DNA of 64,000 nucleotides from Candidatus Roizmanbacteria bacterium. Lineage in GTDB: Bacteria; Patescibacteriota; Microgenomatia; UBA1406; GWC2-37-13. The stretch spans positions 1 to 64,000 of the forward strand of contig JAAXWC010000001.1 in the NCBI GenBank assembly GCA_013335175.1, written 5' to 3'. Shown here piece by piece: positions 1,116-9,091 of the stretch; positions within the stretch are counted from its first letter, which is position 1; every line of letters begins with the position of its first letter. Both the position numbers and the translations under genes were made by a program. Under the pieces are notes generated by a model that did not search any database, was not told the origin of the DNA, and saw only the letters and a program-made list of their open reading frames with translations.

Positions 1116-1835
1116 TTACGTAAATCGTTCAAAAAAGATAGAATCTGAAGGCACCTCAGCATCGAGAAGATACTGTTTCAAAGCAGCTACAACATCTTTA
1201 CCTCCACAGATATAAAATTCGCCCTGCGATTTATAGAGATCAAGAAGAGGTGGGAGAGCCGTTGTAATTCTTCCTGTCTGAAATCCATTTTGGTCGGGGA
1301 GTGTTGATTCTTGAGATAGACAAATCTTGCTTGTGAATCCATTCACTTTTTTCTCCAAGGTGTGAAGTTCTTCCGTATAGTAAACCTCTTGCAATGTCCG
1401 AAGGCCCCACAGCAAAGTCTGGGGTACAGAGGGGACAAGAGGATGTAAAAGCTGGTTTCTTAAAATGCTCAAAAATGGCGTAATACCAGTTCCCGTTGCA
1501 AGATATATCTTTGGTCGGTCAGTTTCTTTTAGGGTAAATAACCCAGCGGGGCCTTGAAATGTTACCTCTGACCCAAGGGGAAGAGCATGCAGATAGCTTG
1601 AGCCAATCCCATTTGGTACGTGGCGAACTAATAAGGAAAAAGATTCCGTTTGCTCCGGTGAAGTGTCAATAGAGTAAAGTCGACGGACAGAATTGGTGCC
1701 GGATGGAATGTGTGCAATTATATACTGTCCCGGGAGAAACACGAGAGGGGAATCTGTGTATGTGAAGGTGACGGAAAAAACGTCAGCCGATAATTGAATT
1801 TTTTCAACAAGTTTGGCAGAGAAGGTTGATATCAT
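1116..1835 (-). CDS. FAD/NAD(P)-binding oxidoreductase of the ferredoxin-NADP reductase family
   Basis: 239 residues with the two-domain FNR layout. The N-terminal barrel carries the FAD motif 'RRLYSID' (RxYS type, about residue 51) and 'GPAGLF' for the phosphates. The C-terminal Rossmann half has 'YLATGTGITPFLSIL' for NAD(P) and ends with 'YICGGKDVV' and a terminal aromatic residue pair before the last Thr. No iron-sulfur cysteine cluster follows, so it is a simple flavin reductase that would pass electrons between NAD(P)H and a separate carrier. Its ATG overlaps the stop of the preceding ATPase gene (ATGA), so translation is coupled. The partner protein is not evident in the window. Confidence 0.85.
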   Translation of the reverse strand: MISTFSAKLVEKIQLSADVFSVTFTYTDSPLVFLPGQYIIAHIPSGTNSVRRLYSIDTSPEQTESFSLLVRHVPNGIGSSYLHALPLGSEVTFQGPAGLFTLKETDRPKIYLATGTGITPFLSILRNQLLHPLVPSVPQTLLWGLRTLQEVYYTEELHTLEKKVNGFTSKICLSQESTLPDQNGFQTGRITTALPPLLDLYKSQGEFYICGGKDVVAALKQYLLDAEVPSDSIFFERFT

Positions 1836-4186
1836 AGTTTCGCACGGTGGGTAATTTCAGCTTCGACTAACTCCTTGGGACGACCAAATTTTAAACGAGA
1901 AAGCTGAATAATAGCTTGGGCAATATCTTCATTGGCTTCTGCTTTCAGTTTATCAATATCTTTTGTCATATCAATAGAAAAAGGTGGGACAGGCTCGTTG
2001 TTTACAATTGTTTTCATATAGGCGTGAAAACGTTCGACATTAATGAGATCGTTTTCACCAAAGAGTGGTTGAAACTCGCGTTGGAGATAAGAGGCATCGG
2101 TTACACCGACACGGAATGAAATATTCGTACCTACGTTTCCAAATACAGCATTTTTCACCTCTTCATCCATCTGCCCAATAAACTGGTTGGCCACAGTTAG
2201 ACTCAAGTGATATTTACGAGCTTCTGAAAGAATAACCGCAAAATCTGGGGTTGCAAAATTTTGGAATTCGTCTACGTAGAGGAAGAAATCTCGCCGTTTT
2301 TCTTCAGGAATCTCTACCCGACTCATCGCGGCAGCAAGAATTTTTGGCACAATTACCAATCCTAAGAAGGTAGAATTTTCCTCGCCAAGTTTTCCTTTAG
2401 AAAGATTAACCAATAATATTTTTCCGTTATCCATGACGTCTCTAAAATCAAAAGCACTTTTTGATTGCCCAATAATATTACGCATCATTTTATTGGTAAT
2501 GAAACGGCCAAACTTTGAGACGATATAATCGAGTACTTCTGATTTATGAAAATCGGCGGTCTGGGCGATTTGATCGGTCCAGTATCGGCGGATAATAGGG
2601 TCTTGTACTTTGGGGAGGAGCTCTTGGACAACCTTTGGATCAGTCATAATACGAACAATTTCAACAAAAGTTGCCCCTGGTTCACACATAATCGTAAGCA
2701 TGGCATTTCGTACTGCGTGCTCAAATCGAGGTCCAATAATACCCGTACGTTGAGGATCATAAAGTTTGTACATGAGGTTAATTATGGCTCCTGTTATGAA
2801 ATGTTTTTGTTCTTCTGTCTCTGCTTCCAAAAGATTAAGACCCATAGGGCGGTCTGTGTCTGCCGGGTCAAACAAAATAACGTCTTCAGCTCGTTCTGGA
2901 GGAACAAATCGAAGGGTGTCTTCTATTAAATCTCCGTGAGGATCAATGACGCAAACTCCAAATCCTGCGCGAATATCCTGTTTAATCATTTCTTTCAGAA
3001 GTTCAGATTTACCTACACCGGTTTTTCCAATAATATAGGTGTGTCGCATTCGATCTTTTAAATTTACGCACACAGGTCTACGTATGCCTCGATAATATCC
3101 ATATCCCATAAAGGTTCCGCCTTCGGTGGGTACTTCAGCGGATACGGGAGCGGACTTTGCCTTCATCCACTGAATATGAGGAGTTTCGATGGTTTTATTG
3201 GGGAAGTGGAACATGGTCCCCAGTTCGTCTGAAGAGAAGATTGAAACTTCCCGAGCGAATGGCCATTTTAGAACAGGAAAAAATTTATAAAGAAAGTTCA
3301 CCATGAATCCTCCTTTGAATAGGATTCGAGCACTTGTGAGACTATTTTGATCAGAATTGAATTGTGAAAAAGCATTTTTAATATTTCGTACATGGACATC
3401 TGCCAGATCTTTGTCTTTCGCATTTACCACGTAGCGGATCGTGGTTTCAAATCCCGTTTTTGCACATTTTTCATCAATTTTTTCCAGTATTTTTTGGTCG
3501 GTCTTGAAGGTGGCTTTTTCCGGATTGGCTTCATTTTTTTTAGTTGAAGAAATATATGATCGTCCGAGTTTTTTCCATTTAGAATTTGCGGGACGGATAA
3601 GAAATTGAATTATGGCTGCTTCATCATCATCCATTTTGGAAAGGGCAGAGGTGAGGGCAGAAATGGGATCGATGGGGATTTCTTTGAAAACCTTGAGCGG
3701 GAGGTAGCTTACCTCTTTTTGGACCAAAGATCCATACGCAACCTTCCCATTTTCGGTAAAAATATTCGGTTCATCTACTTTTTTAATATCTGCTGCGGGA
3801 TAATAACCGTAAATTGTTTTTTCTATCAAATCTTTGCTTTTTTCAGGGCAGGAAACGTAAAAACGGATATCGGATTTTTTACCTACGATTTCAAAGGCAA
3901 GGACATCATTTACGTTCAAAAATTGGAACCAGCCACCTTTTTTCAATGAAGCAAAAGCAGCAAACATTTGTTCAGCAGCATCAATTTTTATCTCATTTTC
4001 TTTAGACACTTGTACCTCAAGCGTAATCATGTTGAGAGCACTTTTTTCTCGTTTTTTCATCCTAGTGTAAATAATAAACGCGAAGAACAAGAGAAAGAGG
4101 AATGTAACCGCAAAAAGAAGGAACAGCAGAAAAAACAAAAGGTCATAGAACCTATTCAGCAGTGTTTGAACATACAACGAATCCAT
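1832..4186 (-). CDS. Membrane-anchored conjugation-type ATPase (VirD4/TraG-HerA superfamily)
   Basis: 784 residues. Residues 8-41 form a very hydrophobic segment, so the N-terminus is membrane-anchored. A soluble region (about 50-340) precedes the motor domain, with Walker A 'GKTGVGKS' near residue 385, 'VIDPHGDL' just after it and Walker B 'FLYVDEFQNF' near residue 632; 'ANQFIGQM' is the sensor region. These are hallmarks of DNA-pumping ATPases of the VirD4/TraG/HerA group. In CPR genomes such proteins occur without a complete type IV secretion system, and no other secretion genes are visible here. It may move DNA for uptake or transfer; that is inference. A 116-bp copy of its Walker A region lies at 7424-7539. 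Confidence 0.85.
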   Translation of the reverse strand: MDSLYVQTLLNRFYDLLFFLLFLLFAVTFLFLLFFAFIIYTRMKKREKSALNMITLEVQVSKENEIKIDAAEQMFAAFASLKKGGWFQFLNVNDVLAFEIVGKKSDIRFYVSCPEKSKDLIEKTIYGYYPAADIKKVDEPNIFTENGKVAYGSLVQKEVSYLPLKVFKEIPIDPISALTSALSKMDDDEAAIIQFLIRPANSKWKKLGRSYISSTKKNEANPEKATFKTDQKILEKIDEKCAKTGFETTIRYVVNAKDKDLADVHVRNIKNAFSQFNSDQNSLTSARILFKGGFMVNFLYKFFPVLKWPFAREVSIFSSDELGTMFHFPNKTIETPHIQWMKAKSAPVSAEVPTEGGTFMGYGYYRGIRRPVCVNLKDRMRHTYIIGKTGVGKSELLKEMIKQDIRAGFGVCVIDPHGDLIEDTLRFVPPERAEDVILFDPADTDRPMGLNLLEAETEEQKHFITGAIINLMYKLYDPQRTGIIGPRFEHAVRNAMLTIMCEPGATFVEIVRIMTDPKVVQELLPKVQDPIIRRYWTDQIAQTADFHKSEVLDYIVSKFGRFITNKMMRNIIGQSKSAFDFRDVMDNGKILLVNLSKGKLGEENSTFLGLVIVPKILAAAMSRVEIPEEKRRDFFLYVDEFQNFATPDFAVILSEARKYHLSLTVANQFIGQMDEEVKNAVFGNVGTNISFRVGVTDASYLQREFQPLFGENDLINVERFHAYMKTIVNNEPVPPFSIDMTKDIDKLKAEANEDIAQAIIQLSRLKFGRPKELVEAEITHRAKL

Positions 4187-5841: not shown

Positions 5842-6953
5842 CCCCGAACGTAGAGAGAAAAAAGCATGATATGGAGGATCAGAAACAAAAATCCGATCAG
5901 CAGTTTTATCCATAGTTTTTTTATCGATCCCAGGGCAATAAAAATAGAAACGGATAGGAGTGCGTATCTCGGGACAGAGGATAGAGTCCCCGTTAGAGTA
6001 GGGAGAATAAGGCTGGCTGATGAAAAATACACGAGTCCCGCGAGTTCAGATAGGAGTTGTTTTTTTCTCCATAACTGCACCAATTGAAACACCAAAATCG
6101 CTCCGGCACCAATGAAAAGGAACAGTTCACAGAGAGATATAAAATACGGGATGTTCCAATCGGAGGTTACCACAATTTTGGCATAGCGATACAGAACTTG
6201 GGGGATAGATATGAGATTATTAGATCTCTGAGCCCCAAAAGCCCACTGAACATGCATAAAATATAATGGATCCCCTGTTGTTTGCCAGAGATACAAGCAG
6301 TAGGTAGCGAGTCCGACTACAGGAGCAAAAAGGAGTATAAAGTATCCCTGCAATTTTTTGCCCTCCTGCCATCTTCGCAGAATTATAAGGGCAAACGGGA
6401 TAATGAGAAATATTCCAATAAGACGTGTCAACGAAGCAAAGAAGGCACATATTCCAGCTAAAACCCAGTTTTTTTTATGAATGAAGTAGAACGTTCCTAT
6501 GCTCAGAAGAAAAAAGAGTCCTTCGGTATAGACAGCATTCAGAAAAAATGAAGTTGGAAAGAGAAGAAAGAATAGGAGTGTCCACCAGATTGAAGTATCT
6601 TTCTTCATTAATTCTTGGAGATATTTTTTAAAAACATACATTCCTCCAATAAATGAAAGGAAAGAAATAAGCACTCCAGCAACAATACTATGGCCTCCAA
6701 AAAGATACTGACTCAAGAGATAAATAAGTAGAGGATATAACGGGAAAAATGCCTGTTCATACTGAGCATATCCATTTTCTGAAATCAGCAAGTAATGAAT
6801 ACCATCAAAATGGGCGAGTGGTTGAAGGAAAAAAGGTTCATACATCTTTAGTTGTGCTTCATAGGGAAAAGATCCAGGGGTAGGGAAAATACTGGGCGCT
6901 AGAAAGCCCAAAAGAACGAATAGACTACACCATCCGAAAAGAAGCAGTTTCAT
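5826..6953 (-). CDS. PIG-V-like GT-C mannosyltransferase-type membrane protein
   Basis: 375 residues, about ten transmembrane helices. The first external loop contains 'HFDGIHYLLISENGY' near residue 48, the acidic active-site loop typical of PIG-V/GPI-mannosyltransferase-2-like GT-C enzymes, followed by 'FFPLYPLLIYLL', 'FPTSFFLNAVYTEG' and 'SLTRLIGIFL', all family hallmarks. It should transfer a sugar from a polyprenyl-phosphate carrier to a surface glycan or protein. The start is supported by TATACT at 6960-6965, 6 nt before the ATG. Acceptor unknown. Confidence 0.75.
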   Translation of the reverse strand: MKLLLFGWCSLFVLLGFLAPSIFPTPGSFPYEAQLKMYEPFFLQPLAHFDGIHYLLISENGYAQYEQAFFPLYPLLIYLLSQYLFGGHSIVAGVLISFLSFIGGMYVFKKYLQELMKKDTSIWWTLLFFLLFPTSFFLNAVYTEGLFFLLSIGTFYFIHKKNWVLAGICAFFASLTRLIGIFLIIPFALIILRRWQEGKKLQGYFILLFAPVVGLATYCLYLWQTTGDPLYFMHVQWAFGAQRSNNLISIPQVLYRYAKIVVTSDWNIPYFISLCELFLFIGAGAILVFQLVQLWRKKQLLSELAGLVYFSSASLILPTLTGTLSSVPRYALLSVSIFIALGSIKKLWIKLLIGFLFLILHIMLFSLYVRGYFVS

Positions 6954-6977
6954 GGAGAAAGTATAGCATTTTTTTAG

Positions 6978-7051
6978 TCGGGACGGCGAGACTTGAACTC
7001 GCGACCTTTGGACCCCCAGCCCAACGTTCTAGCCATCTGAACTACGTCCCG
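6978..7051 (-). tRNA. tRNA-Pro (anticodon GGG), intact copy
   Basis: The minus strand folds into a normal cloverleaf: acceptor CGGGACG/CGTCCCG, D stem GTTC/GAAC, anticodon stem TTGGG/TCCAA with loop CTGGGGG (anticodon GGG), and T arm GCGAG-TTCAAGT-CTCGC. Discriminator A; no CCA encoded. The stop codon and last two codons of the GIY-YIG gene lie inside its 5' acceptor strand. A second, altered copy lies at 7315-7389. Confidence 0.95.
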
Positions 7052-7287
7052 TTAATGAGCTTTTCATAAAAAGCTCTATTTTTCTGTTTTTTTAAAAAGT
7101 GCTCTCGTTGTAAAACCGATTTTTTTGTTTCATGTGTCTCTTGGTATACTACCTTCCAAGGACCTTTTTTCTTCGTCGATGCTGTCAAATTATTATTATG
7201 ATGCCATAGTCGATCTTCTAAATCAGAGGTAGATCCGATATAAAAGGCACCTGTCTGCGTACTTTGAATAATATAGACAAAGAACAT
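7042..7287 (-). CDS. Short GIY-YIG endonuclease-domain protein between tRNA-Pro copies
   Basis: 81 residues from the ATG at 7287. The frame extends upstream into the tRNA copy, but TATAAT at 7294-7299 (6 nt before this ATG) and the family start 'MFFVYIIQS' fix the start. 'VYIIQ' and 'FYIGST' are the two halves of the GIY-YIG core, 'LEDRLWHHN' carries the catalytic Arg and His, and 'REHFLKKQK' supplies a late Glu/basic region. Stand-alone proteins of this size (YhbQ-like) are common in CPR genomes. The gene fills the space between two same-strand tRNA-Pro copies and ends inside the downstream one, as expected for a small mobile or homing-type unit; mobility is inferred. Confidence 0.75.
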   Translation of the reverse strand: MFFVYIIQSTQTGAFYIGSTSDLEDRLWHHNNNLTASTKKKGPWKVVYQETHETKKSVLQREHFLKKQKNRAFYEKLINGT

Positions 7288-7293
7288 ACTCCA

Positions 7294-7299
7294 ATTATA
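7294..7299 (-). promoter_or_regulatory. -10 box of the GIY-YIG gene
   Basis: TATAAT on the minus strand, followed by TGGAGT and then the ATG at 7287. Six nucleotides of spacing place transcription start at the start codon; the GGAG could otherwise serve as a very short-spaced ribosome binding site. Confidence 0.5.
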
Positions 7300-7314
7300 G
7301 CGATTGTTAGTTTC

Positions 7315-7389
7315 TCGGGACGGCCCCGAGTCCTCGGGGCGACCTTTGGACCCCCAGCCCAACGTTCTAGCCATCTGAACTACGTCCCG
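7315..7389 (-). pseudogene. Altered second copy of tRNA-Pro (GGG) with replaced T arm
   Basis: 75 nt. Acceptor stem, D arm, anticodon arm (GGG) and variable loop are identical to the tRNA at 6978-7051. Only the T arm differs: the 17-nt normal arm with TTCAAGT loop is replaced by 18 nt forming a perfect 8-bp inverted repeat (GCCCCGAG-TC-CTCGGGGC). Read as a T arm it would have a GCCCC/GGGGC stem and an 8-nt loop lacking the TTCRANY consensus. It is therefore probably not a working elongator tRNA, although charging through the acceptor and anticodon parts cannot be excluded. Confidence 0.75.
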
Positions 7390-7423
7390 TTATCTATCAC
7401 ACTATTCTACCACATAGCAAGTT

Positions 7424-7539
7424 ATTTCTTTCAGAAGTTCAGATTTACCTAGACCAGCTTTTCCAATAATAGAGGTGAGTCGCATTCGATCTTTTAAATT
7501 TACGCACACAGGTCGACGTATGTCTCGATAATATCCATA
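7424..7539 (-). repeat. 116-bp duplicated fragment of the conjugation ATPase gene (Walker A segment)
   Basis: Aligns without gaps to 2988-3103 in the same orientation, with 7 mismatches by my count (about 94% identity). It encodes the remnant 'GKAGLGKSELLKE', corresponding to 'GKTGVGKSELLKE' in the parent gene. No start, domain or downstream frame accompanies it, so it is a non-functional fragment. It lies between the altered tRNA-Pro copy and the promoter of the GHKL gene. Confidence 0.9.
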
Positions 7540-7540
7540 G

Positions 7541-7570
7541 GTGACAATCGAGTGACTACTGTGGTACAAT
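7541..7570 (+). promoter_or_regulatory. Promoter of the GHKL ATPase gene
   Basis: GTGACA (7541-7546), 18-bp spacer, TACAAT (7565-7570), then 9 nt to the ATG at 7580. The close spacing suggests a leaderless or nearly leaderless mRNA. It abuts the duplicated ATPase fragment. Confidence 0.55.
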
Positions 7571-7579
7571 ACGCATGAA

Positions 7580-9091
7580 ATGGAAGATACTAACAAGATT
7601 TCTTCACTGAGAATAACATTTGACAAATCACACCTCTCTTCTATTGGCGAACGAATGTACAGCCAAAGCCTTGATCTTATTCGAGAACTGGTTGCAAATG
7701 CCTATGATGCAGATTCAAGTCGTGTAGAAATATCGGTCGGTTCACAATCACTGACGGTTCGCGATAATGGATCAGGTATGGATAGGGCAGGTTTGGAGCA
7801 GTATTTTACTATTGGATCAGCGTACAAAAAAAGTAATCCGGTCAGTTCAAAATACAAGAGAGCACGAATTGGAGAGTTTGGTATTGGAAAGTTTGCTGTG
7901 CTTTCACTTTGTGATCGATTTGAACTCTACACTTCTTCATCAGATTATGCTGCAACGGTTATCTTTGATCGGCAGGATTTTGAACATCAACAGGATTGGA
8001 CAGTGCCAATTATTGAGCACACTCCAACGGGAAAACAGGGGACATACGTAACCCTTTATAACGTAAAAAAAGATATTTCACTCCTCGATTTAGAGCGTTA
8101 TCTTACCAATTTATTTCCCCTCACCGACCCTCATTTTAGCATTGTACTGAATGAACGAAAATTAGAACCAAAGTATATTGCAGGTGAAAGAATCCGGATT
8201 CAGGAGTACACAAAATTTGGCACCATTAAAGGTGAAATTATCCTTGCTTCGCTTATGCTTTCAAAAGAATCTATCGGTATAGGAATTCGAGTGAAGGGAG
8301 TACTCATTAAGCGAAGTCTTTTTGGCGTTGACGCTAATGATTCGCTTTCCTTTCGTAAAGTTACTGGGGAGGTGAATGCTGATTTTCTCCTTATGAAAAC
8401 CGATCGTTCTGATTTTATTACAGATAGAGAAGAGTATGAATTATTTGAAAAAATAATGATTAAAAAATTGAAACGGGCAGTTTTGAAGATGGAAAAACGA
8501 CAAGTTTCGTATCAGGATAAGAAATCGGAAAAAGTGTTATCGGACGTATTGTTGATGATACGTGGGGCTTTACGAAGGAATAATACCATGTTTATCAGTG
8601 GCGATCTTCCACTCTTTGCTCGTCATAAAACAAAAAATCTTATTGCATCGGAGATAACAGATGGAATTATTGGTACAGAACTTTCGCAGAAAAAATCGCT
8701 TCCAAAAACCGAAGATGAAGAACTGAAAAAGTTAGTCAAAGAGGCAGTAAAAAAATTGAAACCGAAGTTGCGGGGAAGAGTCAAAACGCTTATGAAAGAT
8801 GAACAGCGCATTATCAAAAAAATTAAAATCGGTGGAACAGAACTGTTGGTTTCGTTTGCTCATTTGGGAGAAGAGGAAAAGGAAAGTTTTGTAGATGGCG
8901 GTATTATTTTTATCAACCGTGATCATGCGCTGTATAAACAGATCGAAACAAAAACTGATCTGATGTTCTACCATCTTATTCGTCTCGTTTCTCAGGAATT
9001 GATAAAGTTTGCCTATCCAAAAAATATTGAGGTTGCCTTTGACTGGCAGGGAAAACTGATGAAGGATTGCTATCAGGGAAGGGAAGAGTGA
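7580..9091 (+). CDS. GHKL-type (Hsp90/MutL/MORC-like) ATPase
   Basis: 503 residues. The N-terminal half is a GHKL ATP-binding domain: N-box 'RELVANAYDAD' (about residues 35-45, catalytic/Mg Glu-Asn), G1 'VRDNGSGMD' (about 60) and G2 'RIGEFGIGKFAVLSL' (about 95-109). A second alpha/beta region follows, then a lysine-rich helical segment (about 300-420) and a C-terminal domain without recognisable motifs. There is no histidine-kinase dimerisation helix or receiver, so it is not a sensor kinase. It may be a chaperone-like or DNA-associated ATPase; the role is unknown. It ends 1 nt from the convergent dCMP deaminase gene. Confidence 0.75.
   Translation: MEDTNKISSLRITFDKSHLSSIGERMYSQSLDLIRELVANAYDADSSRVEISVGSQSLTVRDNGSGMDRAGLEQYFTIGSAYKKSNPVSSKYKRARIGEFGIGKFAVLSLCDRFELYTSSSDYAATVIFDRQDFEHQQDWTVPIIEHTPTGKQGTYVTLYNVKKDISLLDLERYLTNLFPLTDPHFSIVLNERKLEPKYIAGERIRIQEYTKFGTIKGEIILASLMLSKESIGIGIRVKGVLIKRSLFGVDANDSLSFRKVTGEVNADFLLMKTDRSDFITDREEYELFEKIMIKKLKRAVLKMEKRQVSYQDKKSEKVLSDVLLMIRGALRRNNTMFISGDLPLFARHKTKNLIASEITDGIIGTELSQKKSLPKTEDEELKKLVKEAVKKLKPKLRGRVKTLMKDEQRIIKKIKIGGTELLVSFAHLGEEEKESFVDGGIIFINRDHALYKQIETKTDLMFYHLIRLVSQELIKFAYPKNIEVAFDWQGKLMKDCYQGREE

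Follow-up and report, generated by a model that had tools for sequence, protein, structure and literature searches.

Why does a very small nuclease gene lie between an intact tRNA gene and a damaged copy of the same tRNA gene? The question is raised by a Candidatus Roizmanbacteria bacterium, from which we analyzed a stretch of 64,000 nucleotides (the window). CPR genomes are small and are reported to be poor in mobile elements. The first-pass annotation had described here a GIY-YIG ORF of 81 amino acids between two same-strand copies of tRNA-Pro(GGG), an arrangement that ARAGORN, Rfam and Pfam confirmed (Table 1), and had proposed a small element directed at tRNA genes, for which the nuclease would be the mobility enzyme. 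At the level of sequence this proposal is supported, since both empty sites and an enrichment of such genes near tRNAs have been found. The hairpins of the broken copy, the units on the 3' side of a tRNA and the tandem arrays described below go beyond what that annotation had noticed. We consider it likely that the unit, about 410 bp long and with a single ORF coding for a GIY-YIG domain only, is one copy of a free-standing, homing-type mini-element that invades tRNA genes and supplies a replacement tRNA.

Anatomy of the tRNA-Pro unit

On the minus strand the broken tRNA-Pro comes first, followed by the leader, the ORF and the intact tRNA-Pro(GGG), into which the ORF runs. The stop codon, TAG (7044-7042), had been placed inside the acceptor stem; actually it corresponds to tRNA positions 8-10, just beyond the 5' strand of the stem, and it is the last sense codons that lie in the stem.

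Table 1. Features of the tRNA-Pro unit, with positions numbered along the window
Feature	Position	Strand	Basis and remarks
Intact tRNA-Pro(GGG)	6977..7051	(-)	ARAGORN; Rfam RF00005, 63.2 bits; 3' end of the element; presumed functional
54-nt direct repeat, downstream member	7001..7054	(-)	Exact identity
GIY-YIG endonuclease ORF, 81 aa, single domain	7042..7287	(-)	Pfam PF01541, E=2.3e-17
Leader, 27 nt, broken tRNA to start codon	7288..7314	(-)	TATAAT at 7299-7294; sequence only, weak
Broken (pseudo) tRNA-Pro(GGG)	7315..7389	(-)	Rfam RF00005, 38.4 bits; no ARAGORN call
Hairpin GCCCCGAGGACTCGGGGC in place of the T arm, broken copy	7323..7340	(-)	Read from the sequence; folds as a stem
54-nt direct repeat, upstream member (tRNA 5' part + 3 nt)	7339..7392	(-)	Exact identity

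The broken copy keeps the acceptor stem, the D arm and the anticodon arm, and a hairpin has been swapped for its T arm. After the 54 shared nucleotides, the T arm of the intact gene, GCGAGTTCAAGTCTCGC, is replaced in the broken copy by GCCCCGAGGACTCGGGGC, after which the acceptor strand CGTCCCGA is found again. It had been noticed that one copy was intact and the other had a changed T arm, and both statements hold; the change, however, is not simple drift but replacement by a perfect hairpin, GCCCCGAG-GA-CTCGGGGC (7340-7323). Different hairpins occupy the T-arm position in the tRNA-Pro locus L226 and in L012, the second place at which the window genome has a tRNA-Pro of this kind.

Residues Y5, Y16, G18, R26, H30 and E62 are invariant in 13 tRNA-linked homologues; four of them (Y16, G18, R26 and E62, corresponding to the catalytic Tyr, Gly, Arg and Glu), together with the Pfam match, place the window protein in the GIY-YIG superfamily (PF01541). 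The gene is free-standing, i.e., not inside an intron: an Rfam search of positions 6800-7700 at E values up to 1 gave the two tRNA matches only, and no intron family was found at the window or at 13 further loci, so that an intron- or intein-encoded nuclease was rejected. A tRNA-targeting integrative element or prophage was also rejected, as the unit has no integrase and the repeat is the 5' part of the tRNA and not the 3' end typical of an attachment site. The TATAAT of the leader was not flagged in a promoter scan, and we make no promoter claim because -10-like boxes before the ORF were not enriched over the control (18/65, against 28/65 inside ORFs).

Immediately upstream of the broken tRNA-Pro there is a 116-bp copy (7424-7539, minus strand, 94% identical) of part of the DUF87/TrwB-like ATPase gene located at 1832-4186 (source 2988-3103). 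This copy could be filler DNA taken in during break repair.

Recurrence in the same genome, across CPR and beyond

We have found 11 PF01541 matches in the window genome, one in a long UvrC-like ORF and ten in small genes. Four of these ten, at three loci, run directly into a tRNA, or a copy of one, on their own strand (Pro, Lys and Gln, the last with two in tandem), and each has before it a 5' fragment of the same tRNA, interrupted by hairpins. The ORFs end within the tRNA also at the other two, with TAG as the stop in tRNA-Lys and TAA in tRNA-Gln, and in the tRNA-Lys locus the remainder of the original tRNA, in which TCCCGATTCATCGGGA has taken the place of the anticodon arm, is found downstream of the intact copy. 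Its repetition at tRNA-Lys and tRNA-Gln puts the arrangement well out of the reach of chance: from tRNA density alone, three such loci have a P of about 8e-8.

The same genome holds a tRNA-Pro nested between a 5' and a 3' fragment of tRNA-Pro (L012:1600-1900, i.e., G000:C17:27616-27893), without a nuclease ORF; the T arm of the 3' fragment is CCCCGAGTCCTCGGGG. The locus L244 (G005:C116) resembles it, with a nested tRNA-Pro, hairpins and again no nuclease ORF. There is also a second class of small GIY-YIG genes with REP-like palindromes on their flanks (L005, L006, L007 and L008; G000:C33, C45 and C32:66890), of which the window genome has three near-identical copies.

The pattern is repeated in loci from 30 relatives, with tRNA-Pro, Gln, Ser, Tyr and Glu, and in a finished single-contig genome (G007) 4 or 5 of the 9 small genes examined show it. 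In a sample of 193 CPR genomes, 144 match the tRNA-linked profile, with up to 17 matches per genome; these frequencies rest on a profile built from tRNA-linked proteins and are not those of all GIY-YIG genes, and the contig search, which used a 4-sequence subset of the 13-sequence alignment, is biased toward that subgroup. Within this sample a same-strand tRNA was located at most 60 nt downstream in 30 of 74 ORFs (3 more within 500 nt), and at most 200 nt upstream, just 5' of the ORF, in 12, these being elements on the 3' side of a tRNA. An opposite-strand tRNA in that range was found in none of the 74. The expectation by chance from tRNA density is 0.2 of 74, and even the conservative bound in which every tRNA is taken to directly follow a same-strand gene gives a P of 2e-22. 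The enrichment of small GIY-YIG genes near tRNAs anticipated by the first-pass annotation is thus massive, directional and extends across the phylum. ARAGORN misses some tRNAs, and one (in L113) was recovered by Rfam. About half of the related ORFs in the samples have no RNA gene nearby; they may have decayed, or may represent other classes, e.g., the REP-flanked genes.

A scan of all bacterial species added 22 tRNA-linked ORFs with the tRNA downstream and 15 with it upstream, all same-strand and mostly CPR. Outside CPR, a similar build was found in a Deltaproteobacteria MAG (L213, tRNA-Asn) and in a Zixibacteria chromosome (L200, tRNA-Ala). No relative, and hence no candidate vector, was detected in the viral contigs searched, and the phage records searched gave weak 40% matches only.

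Some loci depart from the common plan. In four without a tRNA (L173, L182, L077 and L086) related GIY-YIG genes adjoin a tmRNA on the same strand, and tmRNA genes may be a further target. Five others (L051, L052, L095, L099 and L106) have two nuclease genes, one at either side of the intact tRNA, with a 3' tRNA fragment after the second nuclease gene in L051, L095 and L099. A conserved tRNA-Arg / GIY-YIG / tRNA-Lys block without broken copies (L022, L027 and L028) is present in several relatives and is perhaps a domesticated form.

Hairpins, empty sites and the likely mobility of the unit

We have looked at the hairpins in the 65 loci with the nuclease 5' of the tRNA (class A). A broken copy of the downstream tRNA precedes the ORF in 44 of them (alignment above the 95% level of mismatched controls, with about 3 expected), and in the remaining 21 none was detectable. 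In loci with the 3' part of the tRNA after the ORF (class B) the repeats were weaker, with few loci above control. Typically, the broken copy has one or two tandem hairpins and retains in most cases the 3' strand of the interrupted arm before the leader. The insert can be in the D arm (L001, L004, L051, L104, L127, L134, L139, L198 and L210), in the anticodon loop (L052, L071 and L256/L050) or in the T loop, e.g., after TTCG (L087, L098, L101 and L115). The 110 nt before the ORF are unusually structured (median z of -2.24 against -0.03 in the control, p 6e-11).

The hairpin sequences vary between lineages and differ in nearly every locus. One nuclease clade, with members at Pro, His, Asn, Lys, Thr, Val, Met and Gln tRNAs, shows again and again a hairpin that can be recognised as CCCGCCYGC...GCGGGCGGG, and for six isotypes (Pro, His, Asn, Lys, Thr and Gln) a homologous hairpin lies in the D arm. 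That the same hairpin recurs across isotypes within one nuclease clade indicates that hairpin and gene move together. As for covariation in the hairpin of this D-arm clade, one pair only was changed on both sides, over a poor alignment of the inner stem, so that covariation gives no proof of a conserved structure there.

It is possible, though less likely than not, that the upstream hairpins regulate translation of the nuclease gene or the stability of its transcript and that the tRNA sequence is nothing but the insertion site. T4 segB, mobE and intron endonucleases do have upstream RNA hairpins that limit translation (PMC2988022), but those described here are located in tRNA arms, at a distance from the start codon that varies between 0 and about 70 nt, and not at the ribosome site. 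Besides, this reading concerns the hairpins alone and is compatible with the unit being a mobile element.

Evidence for mobility comes from several sides. The first-pass annotation had suggested looking for strains with a single uninterrupted tRNA-Pro at this locus. In a comparison between genera, an uninterrupted tRNA-Pro(GGG) without the nuclease is present in 15 relatives, up to 97% identical in sequence; the tRNA would be the recognition site of the nuclease. In another genome (G004) at least 12 identical tandem units of 357 bp start one contig (L050, G004:C2:1-6500), each made of one ORF and of the 5' part of a tRNA-Ser whose anticodon carries two hairpins, and at the end of another contig (L256, G004:C3 end) the ORF runs into an intact tRNA-Ser(TGA). 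A second assembly breaks at the same array junction, with 99.8% identity. The tRNA label is clustered on the nuclease tree (36 changes against 45 when shuffled, with 0 of 200 shufflings as low), over many switches and with most forks unresolved. Among the relatives fetched for the nuclease of L226, a locus with the tRNA-Pro(TGG) of G010, the closest is the nuclease of the window (50%, E 5e-25), and at L226 too the T arm of the broken tRNA-Pro has been replaced by a hairpin, although with a sequence unlike that of the window. Finally, while the two copies in the window are identical over 54 nt, in four loci (L058, L097, L109 and L198) a reading by eye shows differences between the intact and the broken copy in the acceptor stem, D arm or T arm, apparently within the same isoacceptor, which is what an element arriving with a tRNA of its own should produce.

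These data bear on two further explanations. The nuclease might be a domesticated host gene, involved in repair or in tRNA-gene maintenance like UPF0213 or SLX1, and the broken tRNAs ordinary decaying duplicates. The closest solved structures by profile are indeed UPF0213 proteins and SLX1, a structure-specific repair nuclease, and not homing enzymes, and the tRNA-Arg / GIY-YIG / tRNA-Lys block may be a domesticated case. We regard this as unlikely for the whole set, in which the tRNA partner, the position and the very presence of the gene vary among related genomes, hairpin-bearing broken copies of the very same tRNA appear at many isotypes and identical units form a tandem array. It is equally hard to favor a scenario in which REP- or MITE-like hairpins invade tRNA arms by themselves, with the GIY-YIG gene as a passenger that tolerates or exploits them. 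The REP-flanked GIY-YIG genes, the nuclease-free nested tRNA-Pro with hairpins in L244 and in contig C17 of the window genome, and the different hairpin sequence of nearly every locus would fit it, but the homologous hairpin shared across isotypes by one nuclease clade suggests that hairpin and gene travel together, and in essentially all cases the gene lies between the broken and the intact copy and on the strand of the tRNA.

A homing-type element that supplies a replacement tRNA is the reading that we favor, and it could work as follows. The nuclease, of 80-90 amino acids, would cut the tRNA gene in one arm, and repair would copy in the whole unit, i.e., a 5' segment of the tRNA in which one or two hairpins have entered an arm or taken its place, the short leader, the nuclease gene and an intact version of the same tRNA. 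The insertion would be tolerated by the host, which retains a working tRNA. As the intact tRNA would still hold the target, further rounds of cleavage, each repaired from the upstream copy, would add unit after unit in tandem; a still-cuttable intact tRNA beside a broken copy thus predicts tandem arrays like the one seen. The hairpins most likely would destroy the target site in the old copy, damp expression, or both; put more broadly, they may mark a healed and uncuttable site, restrain expression or serve in recognition. Given that the structure-specific endonuclease SLX1 is among the nearest solved folds, the enzyme might act on hairpins that tRNA genes form. The model gives no account of why the broken copy has paired hairpins rather than plain deletions, nor of why, once the unit has moved to a different isotype, its two flanks agree with the tRNA found there.

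A further reading, which we consider a long shot, is that the 5' tRNA fragment and its paired hairpins are a working part of the element and not debris, and that in the form of RNA or of folded DNA they guide the nuclease to the tRNA gene that they match. The nuclease has some 80 residues and no DNA-binding domain of its own, and the layout is comparable to that of IscB-type nucleases, in which the RNA is located upstream. If so, the element would re-address itself at every move, by taking over the sequence of the gene that it enters, and the spread of one small protein family over many tRNA isotypes would be accounted for. A chance neighborhood or an assembly artefact, to which the break of the G004 array at contig ends and the 46 contigs of the window genome might point, can be rejected for practical purposes, given the tRNA density, the conservative bound, the recurrence also in finished single-contig genomes (G007) and the array junction shared by two assemblies.

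If the homing-type reading is right, these would be among the smallest autonomous DNA parasites described, of about 350-450 bp, with one 80-aa gene and with essential tRNA genes as their home, present in most of the CPR genomes sampled, to judge from the matches to the profile. They would account for the puzzling broken tRNA copies in CPR genomes and provide a natural collection of tiny nucleases that differ in the tRNA they target, in which site finding by a single GIY-YIG domain becomes testable.

Comparison with known systems

What we have described looks like a widespread class of free-standing homing elements, set apart by their size, their target and the hairpin-bearing pseudo-tRNA, and apparently unreported: in the open-access literature searched, we found no description of GIY-YIG genes associated with tRNA genes in CPR. 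The UPF0213/YhbQ-like proteins and SLX1 are the closest in fold by profile, and the former also in size, but SLX1 serves its host in repair, the UPF0213 proteins with solved structures carry the label hypothetical, and we know of no linkage of either to tRNA genes. Nor are we aware of any link of the mitochondrial double-hairpin elements to tRNA arms or to a fixed nuclease neighbor. They are similar in being short, GC-rich paired hairpins that are apparently mobile (Paquin, Laforest and Lang, 2000, as cited in PMC4478555).

Two systems share the invasion of essential genes or the hosts. Insertions with GIY-YIG ORFs outside introns, mostly at stem-loops, have been described in the rRNA genes of CPR (PMC11270868); in that case the target is the rRNA, no second intact copy is described and the word "tRNA" is absent from the main text. 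The fungal mitochondrial mobile ORFs with carboxy-terminal duplication (atp6, atp9, cox2 and nad3; PMC3630166) insert in an essential gene, supply a substitute for the part that is cut off and leave the displaced native part in place. However, their targets are mitochondrial protein genes, only the 3' end is supplied and the displaced part has no hairpins.

T-even phages encode SegB, a free-standing homing endonuclease of the GIY-YIG family that cleaves within tRNA genes and whose activity is required for the tandem amplification of the tRNA-Tyr/segB segment (PMC13096335). Its motif, RAWTSGAAC (PMC13096335), resembles, by our own comparison, the conserved T-loop sequence. The likeness extends to the location of a GIY-YIG nuclease beside tRNA genes of many isotypes (PMC2988022, PMC13096335) and to the amplification in tandem of a tRNA together with the nuclease's own gene, as in the L050 array. 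SegB is found, though, in the intergenic regions of tRNA genes, with no broken copies described in PMC2988022 or PMC13096335, whereas the CPR proteins are chromosomal single domains of 80-90 amino acids, and their units hold a hairpin-bearing broken copy of the target and restore an intact tRNA.
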